A stretch of 64,000 bases of DNA, taken from the NCBI RefSeq assembly GCF_000425105.1, contig NZ_AULD01000005.1, forward strand, positions 372,001 to 436,000, read 5' to 3'. Source of the stretch: Agrococcus lahaulensis DSM 17612 (GTDB lineage Bacteria > Actinomycetota > Actinomycetes > Actinomycetales > Microbacteriaceae). Below the pieces are notes generated by a model. The model worked only from the letters and a program-made list of their open reading frames with translations, did no database searches and was not told the origin of the DNA. The translations under genes were made by a program, and so were the position numbers. Position 1 is the first letter of the stretch. Each line of letters opens with the position of its first letter. Shown here one piece after another: positions 28,901-31,863 of this stretch.

Positions 28901-30016
28901 ATGGACACCCAAGAGACGCAGGCGTCGGTCTTCGATGACGCCATCGACGCTCCGACGCTCGCGGAGGAGGCCGGTCCGGCGATCGAGGCCGACCGCGCCG
29001 AGATCCAGGAGGCGCTCGACGGCGGCGTGCAGACCGAGGCGCAGAAGCGCCAGCACCGCCACAACCACCTCGTGCGCGCGATCAACTGGAACCGCATCGA
29101 GGACGAGAAGGACCTCGAGGTGTGGAACCGCCTCGTGAACAACTTCTGGCTGCCCGAGAAGGTGCCGCTGTCGAACGACATCCAGTCGTGGGCGACGCTC
29201 ACCGACGACGAGAAGCTGCTCACGATGCGCGTCTTCACCGGCCTCACGCTGCTCGACACGATCCAGGGCACGGTCGGCGCCGTCTCGCTCATCCCGGATG
29301 CGGTGACGCCGCACGAGGAGGCGGTGCTCACGAACATCGCCTTCATGGAGAGCGTGCACGCGAAGTCGTACTCGTCGATCTTCTCGACGCTCGCGTCGAC
29401 GAAGGAGATCGACGACGCCTTCCGCTGGTCGACGGAGAACCCGTACCTGCAGCGCAAGGCCGAGATCATCATCGGCTACTACGAGGGCGACGACCCGCTC
29501 AAGCGCAAGGTCGCCTCGACGCTGCTCGAGTCGTTCATGTTCTACTCGGGCTTCTACCTGCCGATGCACTGGTCGAGCCGCGCGAAGCTCACGAACACGG
29601 CCGACATGATCCGCCTCATCATCCGCGACGAGGCCGTGCACGGCTACTACATCGGCTACAAGTTCCAGAAGGGCTACGAGAAGCTCACGCCCGAGAAGCA
29701 GGCCGAGATCAAGGACTACACGTACTCGCTGCTCTACGAGCTCTACGAGAACGAGGCGAAGTACTCGGCCGAGCTCTACGACCCCGTGGGCCTCACCGAG
29801 GACGTCAAGAAGTTCCTGCACTACAACGCCAACAAGGCGCTGATGAACCTGGGCTTCGAGCCGCTGTTCCCGTCGACCGTCACCGACGTCAACCCGGCGA
29901 TCCTGTCGGCCCTGTCGCCGAACGCCGACGAGAACCACGACTTCTTCTCGGGCTCCGGCTCCTCGTACGTCATCGGCAAGGCCGAGGCGACCGAGGACGA
30001 GGACTGGGACTTCTAA
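28901..30016 (+). CDS. nrdF: Class Ib ribonucleotide reductase, radical subunit
   Basis: Provides the tyrosyl radical from a dimetal site. 371 residues with a 50-residue leader. Metal ligands are in [37 protein letters not shown] (ExxH) and [15 protein letters not shown] (second ExxH). The C-terminus EDEDWDF is the conserved tail that docks into NrdE. ATG 28901 is chosen because AAGGA lies seven bases upstream; ATG 28886 has no site. The last 22 bases before the final stop base are repeated at 31842-31863, and a foreign two-gene cassette follows directly. Confidence 0.95.
29994..30015 (+). repeat. Left 22-bp direct repeat (nrdF tail) flanking a two-gene cassette
   Basis: Begins AGGACGAGGACT and ends GGGACTTCTA. 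It is identical to 31842-31863; after one A/G difference the next two bases (TC) match again. The left copy is the coding end of nrdF, so the gene stays intact. This resembles the attachment-site duplication left by site-specific integration. Confidence 0.85.
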
Positions 30017-30018
30017 TC

Positions 30019-30660
30019 ATGCTCAGGTGGTTCCGTCCCACTTTGCCGAAGGCAATCCCTCTCGAAGAGGTTCAGAAGCGCGCGCGCTTGCTCGTGGTCG
30101 ACGACAATGACTTCGTCTACATGGATCTCTTTCGTCGGGACGGATACCACATCGAGCGTTGGCCATCGATTACCGACCTTTCCCAATTGACTGACGGCCG
30201 GTACACAGTCATTCTTCTCGACATCCATGGAGTGGCTGTGGAGTCGGATGCCGCCCTGCAGGGCTTGGGCATCCTGCAAGCTGTCAAGAATACGAAGCCA
30301 GGGCAAGCGGTGATTCTATATTCGTCACGCAAGCATCAGTTGTCGCATACCGGGCTGGTTCAGTTGGCGGACCGCGCTCTCGATAAGCGGCAGTCATACA
30401 TCGATTTCAAGCTTGCGGTCGACGAGCTGCTGAAAAGGCAGGCGGATCCGGCTTTCTACATGGCGCAGATTCTCGCTGGGTTGGACCCTGCCGGGCAGGC
30501 GCCTGACCGGCTGCGCAGGGAGGTTGAGTGGGCGCTTGCTCGCAAGGACCCCTCTCGGCTTCGAGACGCCGCTCGAGGCGTAGGAGCCGATGCGGCGAAG
30601 ATTGAACTGGCGGTCTCGTTGCTCGACCTGTACGTCTCGAGCTGGGATGCGTTCTCCTGA
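30019..30660 (+). CDS. Response-regulator-like protein of the nrdF cassette
   Basis: 213 residues. A receiver domain spans about residues 21-135: acidic pair D28/D29 in LLVVDDNDF, phospho-acceptor D68 in VILLDIHG, S102 in ILYSSRK and K123 in ALDKRQ, so all catalytic positions are intact. The C-terminal 80 residues are helical and match no DNA-binding family I know. ATG 30019 lies two bases after the nrdF stop with no separate ribosome site, so translation is probably coupled to nrdF. Codon use is clearly less GC-biased than in neighbours. It overlaps the kinase-like gene by TGATG. Confidence 0.75.
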   Translation: MLRWFRPTLPKAIPLEEVQKRARLLVVDDNDFVYMDLFRRDGYHIERWPSITDLSQLTDGRYTVILLDIHGVAVESDAALQGLGILQAVKNTKPGQAVILYSSRKHQLSHTGLVQLADRALDKRQSYIDFKLAVDELLKRQADPAFYMAQILAGLDPAGQAPDRLRREVEWALARKDPSRLRDAARGVGADAAKIELAVSLLDLYVSSWDAFS

Positions 30661-31799
30661 TGGAGCAGTCTCCTTGGGCCATCTTTCCGTATCCCACGAT
30701 GGCCGACGGGTCCGTTACGGACGGATCGATTCGGAGTGCACCGATGGACTGTCGTCGGTGCCGTGTCCGCGAATGCGCGGAATCGAGCAAGCCTGCCGGC
30801 GTGCTCGACCAATGTCGCTTCGGATATGGCTTCAGCCGTGTCGACGATGAACGCGTGACGATGGGGCTCATCCCGCAGCTACCCTCGCCGAACAGTAAGC
30901 TCCGCCATCGGTATCGCAACTCCCCATCGGAGAGGGTGAGAGCCGAGGAAGTTACGCGCGCGGTAGAGGCCGCCCGGGCGCTCGGCGTCGGCTTCGTCGA
31001 AAGTCTCGAGATTCAGGAAGCGGAGGCGATCCGGCAGCTCGGAACGAATCCGGCGGCTATGCACGCAGCGCTGGAGAAGCTTCGGAAAGATTTCGATCAG
31101 AACCTCTCGCAGAGTCACGACTTCCTGCAGTTGCTGAATCAGATTCGCGGCCATGCTGAGACTCTGCTCCGGCTTCGGGAGCCAACGATGGATGTTCATC
31201 ACGCCGCAGAGAAACACTTCTCGGAGGGCGCGATCTACTTCGCCTCGGAGCTGATGCGCTTGAAGGTCGACGCGCTCGTTTATGTCGAGGACCCCGCGCG
31301 TGCGCTCGAGGAAACCGGACTGTTCGAGATTCACCCTCTGGTGCTGAAGTACGTCAGAATTTACGACTGGCAGGCTCGGCAGAAGGAGCTGGATCTTCGT
31401 CTTGAGGGTGAGTGCCGAGAGCGTGTTCGATACCGCAATGACGCTATCGGTGCCGTGATCCAAGGCCTTCTAGACAACATGATTAAGTACGCTCCCGCTC
31501 GGTCACGGGCGACGGTGCGCTTTGATGTCACACCGCAACGCGTCAGGATCGGGTTCTCCTCGCTCGGGCCCCGATTGATGGCTGGCGAGGATTCCAAGAT
31601 CTGGCTGCCAGGGTTCCGGGGAAAGGTCGCTCGTGAGCTGGAACCGCTCGGTCAGGGCATCGGACTCGGCACCGTGCGGAGCGTGCTGGACGCGGTCAGC
31701 GGACGCGTGTCTGTTGAACAGGCTGACGATCCTGATCAACGTTTCCCCGCGCACTACTTGACTACGTTCTCAGTAGAGTTGGACGCGGTCGGGCCCTAG
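30660..31799 (+). CDS. Histidine-kinase-like protein with N-terminal cysteine cluster
   Basis: 379 residues, no membrane segment. Cys31, Cys34, Cys39 and Cys52 (MDCRRCRVREC ... DQCRFGYGF) could bind Zn or an Fe-S cluster. An H-box-like SHDFLQLLNQIRGHAETLL has His153. The ATPase part shows the N box (GLLDNMIKYAP, Asn273) and a glycine-rich G2 loop GQGIGLG (331-337), but the usual DxGxG box is replaced by SSLGPRL near 301, so ATP binding may be altered. Likely partner of the response regulator before it. Low-GC codon use marks it as acquired. Confidence 0.7.
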   Translation: MEQSPWAIFPYPTMADGSVTDGSIRSAPMDCRRCRVRECAESSKPAGVLDQCRFGYGFSRVDDERVTMGLIPQLPSPNSKLRHRYRNSPSERVRAEEVTRAVEAARALGVGFVESLEIQEAEAIRQLGTNPAAMHAALEKLRKDFDQNLSQSHDFLQLLNQIRGHAETLLRLREPTMDVHHAAEKHFSEGAIYFASELMRLKVDALVYVEDPARALEETGLFEIHPLVLKYVRIYDWQARQKELDLRLEGECRERVRYRNDAIGAVIQGLLDNMIKYAPARSRATVRFDVTPQRVRIGFSSLGPRLMAGEDSKIWLPGFRGKVARELEPLGQGIGLGTVRSVLDAVSGRVSVEQADDPDQRFPAHYLTTFSVELDAVGP

Positions 31800-31844
31800 G
31801 TGAAGCTGCTTACTGCTGCCTTCCAGGTGCGGAGGTGACCTAGG
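31795..31844 (-). ncRNA. Structured element at cassette end, partly like the SRP RNA loop
   Basis: CCTAGGT (31795-31801) and ACCTAGG (31838-31844) pair to enclose 36 nt. On the minus strand the interior contains GGAAGGCAGCAG followed by TAAGC, the 3' side of the small SRP RNA apical domain, and an ACCTC segment like its 5' side. The conserved 5' internal-loop sequence (CAGG) is missing, so I do not call it a functional ffs gene. It could instead be a terminator or part of an attachment site. Confidence 0.3.
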
Positions 31845-31863
31845 ACGAGGACTGGGACTTCTA
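31842..31863 (+). repeat. Right 22-bp direct repeat flanking the cassette
   Basis: Identical to 29994-30015. It is followed by a G, completing a TAG stop in the nrdF frame, so this copy looks like the original end of nrdF left behind on the far side of the inserted genes. Confidence 0.85.

Follow-up and report, generated by a model that had tools for sequence, protein, structure and literature searches.

We analysed a 64,000-nt stretch of the Agrococcus lahaulensis DSM 17612 genome (the window; contig NZ_AULD01000005.1, positions 372,001 to 436,000) and focus here on a two-gene cassette found at the 3' end of nrdF, a gene of the host ribonucleotide reductase operon. The nrdF gene itself (28901-30016, plus strand) is complete, with its reading frame open to the normal end. 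Its last codons include a 22-mer, AGGACGAGGACTGGGACTTCTA, that is present exactly twice in the window: as an attL-like left repeat inside nrdF (29994-30015, plus strand; 22 nt exact) and as an attR-like right repeat (31842-31863, plus strand), which stands free of any nrdF gene, has GTCC directly after it and starts 1,848 bp downstream of the first. An initial annotation, made from the letters of the window alone, had described this repeated nrdF end, and both copies are exact and at the positions it gave; no further copy was found in the 64-kb window at ≤3 mismatches, and none in 100 shuffles, which rules out a chance repeat. Ungapped extension of the repeat pair gives 30 identical positions out of 32 (29984-30015 versus 31832-31863). 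In the proximal copy the nrdF stop codon is TAA, and at the distal copy the sequence is TAG TCC.

Two genes, both on the plus strand, lie between the repeats. The first (30019-30660) encodes a receiver-domain protein of 213 aa and starts 2 nt past the nrdF stop, so that the cassette does sit directly behind nrdF as first described; the second (30660-31799) overlaps it by 1 nt (TGATG), encodes a soluble histidine-kinase-like protein of 379 aa and ends 42 bp before the right core. The lower GC of the two genes, already remarked on in the initial annotation, is evident at third codon positions (GC3): 0.71 for the receiver gene and 0.70 for the kinase gene versus 0.987 for nrdF and 0.93 for the glsA-like gene downstream (the GC content of the whole cassette is 60.4%, that of the window 72.0%). 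The cassette genes are foreign by codon use. No recombinase or transfer gene is among them, and the earlier statement that no integrase lies inside is borne out. Since no inverted repeat joins the cassette ends and no transposase domain was found in the cassette proteins by Pfam, a transposon or insertion sequence can be ruled out. The hairpin behind the distal repeat copy had been taken for the original nrdF terminator, and this proposal found no support: the stem (CCCGCG-CGAT-CGCGGG) is short and has no T run, a terminator scan behind the distal copy found nothing, and no promoter-like or terminator-like consensus was found within 29700-32100.

The two proteins match the candidate defence system PDC-M43 in PADLOC: PDC-M43A for the receiver protein (6e-14) and PDC-M43B for the kinase (3.2e-11), with the A and B genes adjacent and in order. 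Residues D28, D29, D68 and K123 of the receiver and H153 and N273 of the kinase are invariant across four aligned sequences, and the kinase has a Cys-rich N-terminus, a QSHDFLQL motif (containing H153) and a HATPase domain. Profile searches of solved structures matched receiver chains (best E 5e-4) and, for the kinase, PDB histidine kinases (best E 1.6e-10). The identification of a response regulator and a kinase in the initial annotation is thus upheld for the receiver by these structure-based profiles and not by Pfam, in which the receiver protein has no match and no output domain, while HATPase_c of the kinase scores 25.1 bits, just below Pfam's 26.4. The AlphaFold2 model of the receiver protein is poor (predicted local distance difference test score, pLDDT, of 51); the kinase model (pLDDT 66) is matched by CpxA in Foldseek (E 1e-12; template modelling score 0.38 by query length). 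Judged by sequence, the pair is a two-component system, with the acidic pair, Asp and Lys of a receiver and the DHp His and HATPase domain of a kinase.

Homologous pairs were found in two (G085 and G194; G and L numbers are our labels for genomes and loci) of the 299 family genomes searched, and also in Arthrobacter silviterrae and a Curtobacterium (the kinase search of genome contigs gave three loci). Homologues near defence genes or integrases had been proposed as something to look for; the Curtobacterium pair is located in a defence island, between a type II methyltransferase gene and AbiU with another gene intervening, and the region surrounding the Arthrobacter pair reads like a conjugative element. 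Carriage of the pair by viruses or plasmids found no support: in viral contigs, 45 stretches matched a search pattern, none of them encoding a relative, and the sole plasmid match was a distant kinase with 28.5% identity across 42% of the query.

The nrdF tail pattern (up to two mismatches allowed) was matched in 19 of 24 genomes of the genus. There are two tail copies in the genome studied here (G000) and in G006, and one copy in the remaining 17, i.e. 17 of the 18 other tail-matching genomes have the single-copy, empty sites that the initial annotation expected in relatives. Kinase matches of any kind were found in 19 of the 24 genomes, a full-length match only in G000; the best match in another genome of the genus (E 2.4e-8) covers the ATPase region only. 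At E ≤ 1e-12 the kinase is found in three of 299 family genomes, G000 included, and vertical inheritance of the pair is ruled out by this distribution. The glsA-like gene lies within 1.5 kb of the tail in five of the 18 other genomes (G001, G010, G015, G017 and G021), at ∼90 bp behind nrdF in G015 and G017 and at ∼0.9 kb in G010, where the gene is 93% identical. TAGTC follows the core, as in the distal copy of the window, in four of the 18 (G003, G010, G020 and G021), and the GTCC after the right repeat also occurs in some single-copy relatives. The simplest reading of these sequences is that the distal copy represents the old chromosomal junction and that the exchange took place inside the 22-bp core.

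Tail searches were extended to 398 genomes of the family (192 matching) and 396 genomes of the order (250 matching; this sample overlaps the first). Same-strand double tails gave candidate insertions in G000, G006, G056, G101, G330 and G342 in the family search (G082, with copies 14.7 kb apart that agree in 21/22 nt, is kept as uncertain) and in G298 (same family), G454, G526, G608, G623, G705, G730 and G782 in the order search; insertions in G078 and G368 were found through the integrase search. Other doubles were dropped: those with tail copies on opposite strands (G083, G181, G232, G533, G711 and G753) or on different contigs (G026, G507 and G673), one with the same context near both ends of one contig (G398, read as overlapping ends), and six with copies ∼4.09 kb apart (G492, G544, G594, G656, G720 and G729; G729, the sole one opened, holds two NrdF ends). 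Ungapped repeats are 22-32 nt long in G000, G082, G298, G342, G608 and G623 and 65-187 nt long in G006, G056, G101, G330, G454, G526 and G730 (e.g. 163/168 nt in G330 and 176/187 nt in G526), with the NHDFF codons at the start of several of the long copies. The second copy in G298 is degenerate (26/30 nt), and the short second cores in G342, G623, G078 and G368 resemble that of the window.

Integrase-free or decayed cassettes that reach from nrdF to a second tail were found in nine other genomes, and a tenth (G368) lies beside a displaced tail; the initial annotation had proposed a search for nrdF tails with other cargo behind them, and such tails, with a second one beyond the cargo, do occur. 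Nine of 11 tested cassettes show no integrase similarity at E ≤ 1e-3 (G000, G006, G101, G298, G330, G368, G526, G623 and G730), and the other two retain short integrase remnants of 50 aa (G608) and 27 aa (G056). On sequence grounds, the 3' end of nrdF has served repeatedly as an attachment site in Micrococcales. We found no report of an attachment site in nrdF or another ribonucleotide reductase gene in the open-licence literature; the pertinent sections of PMC4490671 describe tRNA attachment sites and contain nothing on nrdF in this role, and those of PMC11514479 do not treat it either.

In G705, locus L105 (G705:C7:33000-46000) looks like an accreted, decayed array: its two nrdF tails are separated by 7 kb, NrdF precedes neither of them, and there are integrase fragments close by. 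The 2-kb cassette of G368 (L223; C1:1647000-1652000) carries a DUF3800 gene; it is bounded by a free tail on one side and a truncated nrdF end on the other, and the intact nrdF, with its integrase, is ∼50 kb away.

Integrases found behind nrdF belong, as far as their sequences tell, to at least two lineages, which we call the G413 and G342 types. The G342-type integrase is found in nine of 398 family genomes, at 10 places; at eight of the 10 the C-terminal part of the integrase gene is preceded, ∼0.9 kb upstream, by an nrdF tail, and seven of these tails are true NrdF ends. It is accompanied by a helix-turn-helix gene that reads like an excisionase gene (L048, L219 and L224), and a DprA-like gene is found with it in L217 and L219 (Pfam on the L219 protein). 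The second core of this type matches at 23/23 nt in G342 and was found in G078 with two mismatches allowed; both are short.

Two scans of viral contigs for nrdF tails gave 43 and 56 stretches, i.e. 91 different loci, which by translation are mostly genuine nrdF genes. Five viral records have tails that stand free, with no NrdF in front of them (those of L056, L057, L094 and L137, and the record shared by L142 and L176); locus L150 starts at the tail and is uninformative in this respect. The 47-kb contig IMGVR_UViG_3300039239_000038 carries two free tails (L142 and L176), which is what a prophage that has both of its attachment ends should show. Using 42 integrases and six further pieces as queries (several of the matched loci are among the queries), we found an integrase match in 11 of the 91 loci, in all 11 within 1.2 kb of the tail. 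We opened 14 viral loci, chosen by eye: four (L061, L133, L137 and L171) have no integrase, and the other ten have an antisense integrase gene 45-315 nt past the stop (1.1 kb past it in L173, after a DUF3800 gene). Among the 60 best of 199 NrdF-tail records from named phages, 58 have a ribonucleotide reductase annotation under the match and two carry no annotation.

The tree of the 42 integrases places nine phage integrases in a clade of their own (99/99), separate from 30 relatives encoded in family genomes; no nrdF tail lies within 1.5 kb of any of these 30, and the loci of 19 include a tRNA gene. (L113 is labelled nrdF in the tree by a free tail in its record, with its integrase 13 kb away; L135, which ends at a contig edge, was excluded.) The G782 prophage has tails 48 kb apart and an integrase right behind nrdF. 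This integrase is on a long branch outside the nine-phage (G413) clade, and an approximately unbiased test does not reject a single clade (p 0.128); we therefore gave up the idea of a third lineage.

The nrdF site carries both defence-type and ordinary cargo. For example, a TIR gene starts 3 nt past the nrdF tail of phage G413; in viral contig L061 a small gene at +20 is followed, ∼0.4 kb behind nrdF, by a type IIG restriction gene; and the G730 cassette encodes a protein with an IrrE domain as well as a putative membrane protein. DUF3800 genes are the cargo in G368 and are also found behind nrdF in L173 and 1.8 kb behind nrdF in the G782 prophage. The cargo of G298 encodes a beta-lactamase-family protein and that of G330 consists of three low-GC3 genes of no recognised family; by reading alone, we assigned HxlR/DoxX-like (G006), acetyltransferase-like (G101), acyltransferase-like (G056) and permease-like (G608) proteins. 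Proteins of ∼640 aa that are 32% identical are found in G526 and G623, i.e. in two genera, with no Pfam or PADLOC match; in each case (L103:2248-4179 and L104:2093-4015) the gene is the sole large cargo gene at the nrdF end, and it is possible that it encodes a new defence protein. L061 (IMGVR_UViG_3300006033_001209) also has, between nrdE and nrdF (L061:2229-3026), a gene with a NUMOD3 motif that resembles GIY-YIG homing endonucleases.

The host operon encodes a class Ib ribonucleotide reductase (26071-30016, plus strand) and consists of nrdH (26071-26298), nrdI (26324-26722), nrdE (about 26710-28860) and nrdF, all on the plus strand. Beyond the cassette, a glsA-like glutaminase gene (31907-33277) is on the minus strand; the nrd and glsA-like names were assigned by reading the translations. 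Upstream of nrdH there is an NrdR-box-like palindrome, ACACACCATCTTGTGT (25962-25977, plus strand), with three mismatches to the NrdR-box consensus and 0 expected in shuffles. A second, imperfect box, CCCACATATAGTGGG, was recognised by eye ∼33 bp past the first.

We propose that the cassette is an att-flanked insertion at the nrdF 3' end that lacks an integrase (similar to a cis-mobilizable element, CIME), with PDC-M43-type cargo probably co-expressed with the nrd operon, and we give this reading a probability of about 0.75. A site-specific insertion, as first suggested for this locus, is supported by the single-tail relatives, the distal TAGTC flank and the integrase-bearing elements at nrdF elsewhere. 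The 1.85-kb, cargo-only cassette would have entered the nrdF 3' end by site-specific recombination, with strand exchange inside the 22-bp core and the old nrdF end, TAGTCC, left beyond the cassette; because the exchange fell inside the core, nrdF would stay intact and use the incoming TAA as its stop. The cassette may have come in with an element carrying an nrdF-specific tyrosine recombinase, been trimmed from it, or been moved by it in trans; integrases with a similar short core (the G342 type) do occur in the same family. As the receiver gene starts 2 nt behind nrdF, the pair probably shares its transcription and translation with the nrd operon, and because this operon has an NrdR-like box, the dose of the pair would be expected to rise when deoxynucleoside triphosphates (dNTPs) are scarce or DNA synthesis is perturbed, for instance during infection by a phage. 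The kinase may then use its Cys-rich N-terminus to sense an intracellular signal and transfer phosphate to the receiver; the output would be the helical C-terminal part of the receiver protein.

Several observations weigh against this proposal. The two PF00589 proteins of the genome are encoded away from the cassette, and the genome has no match to the G413-type (E ≤ 1e-70) or G342-type (E ≤ 1e-30) integrase. PADLOC coverage is partial (residues 15-139 of 213 for A and 222-357 of 379 for B). The pair does not depend on the nrdF site, because no convincing repeats flank the pairs in G085 and G194 (the best, around G194, is 14/16 nt; repeat scans of parts of the L126 and L127 flanks were empty). 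The stop codon alone proves little, because TAA also ends nrdF in the single-copy relatives G011 and G022 and most of the other single-copy relatives have TGA. The cargo of several cassettes has no defensive look, and operon capture is not general, because in most other cases the cargo at nrdF does not follow the stop directly.

The absence of any integrase similarity or remnant from the cassette (E ≤ 1e-3) also tells against the proposed insertion, and it bears as well on a special case of it, in which a full prophage or integrative element decayed in situ, leaving its attL-side cargo and the attR core, so that the cassette was never independently mobile. We consider this history somewhat less probable than even. 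Decay is seen at the site elsewhere, in the remnants of G608 and G056 and the integrase fragments of G705, and the TIR gene of phage G413 starts 3 nt behind the tail, where the cargo of the window starts; with only 42 bp from the kinase stop to the right core, however, the window holds no remnant, nor do nine of the 11 cassettes show integrase similarity. Homologous recombination with a fragment of another strain that carried an nrdF tail and cargo, in which no site-specific recombinase took part, would explain the long tail copies of G330 and G526, whose differences read as partly synonymous. But the repeat in the window is only 22-32 nt long, its right copy has no nrdF homology further upstream, and integrases occupy the same site in other elements, and we regard this route as improbable.

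Whichever way it arrived, the pair may have been acquired simply as a two-component system for the regulation of host genes, with no part in phage defence. Receiver and histidine kinase folds are generic, and Pfam finds no output domain, though the C-terminal part of the receiver protein has no assignment. This role seems doubtful to us, given the ordered PDC-M43 A and B matches, the homologous pair near restriction-modification and Abi genes, the patchy distribution of the kinase in the family, and the TIR, IrrE and type IIG restriction-modification genes among other cargo behind nrdF. A broader idea, which we put forward tentatively, is that the nrdF end in Micrococcales is a convergent attachment site to which distinct integrase lineages bring phages and islands and at which integrase-free defence cassettes travel as passengers, and that cargo behind the stop captures an NrdR-controlled operon induced by dNTP depletion in infection. 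The recurrent use of nrdF adds the end of a protein-coding gene in a ribonucleotide reductase operon to the attachment sites of actinobacterial mobile DNA, one that at least two integrase lineages reach, and the region between two nrdF tails is a place to look for new defence genes. That defence cargo could borrow a nucleotide-stress promoter through its landing position is an idea open to testing.

Among known systems, PDC-M43 shares with the pair of the window a receiver-type A gene followed by a histidine-kinase-type B gene; the profile coverage is partial, however, and the defence role is that of a candidate only, in the database itself too (we found no open-licence paper naming PDC-M43). 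Detocs, a two-component anti-phage system of three proteins with a separate effector, likewise combines histidine kinase and receiver proteins, whereas the pair consists of two proteins, neither with a recognised effector domain; its PADLOC matches include no Detocs model (the library was not checked for such a model). Prophage cargo genes next to an attachment site are known as morons, and the TIR gene of phage G413 lies where the window has its receiver gene, although the cassette has no phage genes. Commoner targets of islands are tRNA or ribosomal genes, whereas the target here is nrdF. The closest counterpart is the CIME, an att-flanked island without an integrase as defined in the relevant part of PMC5704250: in both, cargo lies between attL/attR-like repeats from the 3' end of a target gene, the integrase is absent, the target is restored, and the site is common to integrase-bearing elements (for the cassette, in other genomes and viral contigs). 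The candidate parent element of the cassette, unlike that of a CIME, is perhaps phage-like rather than conjugative, and its mobilisation is putative. An att-flanked island without an integrase is thus of a known kind, and the new parts are the nrdF site and the position of the cargo.

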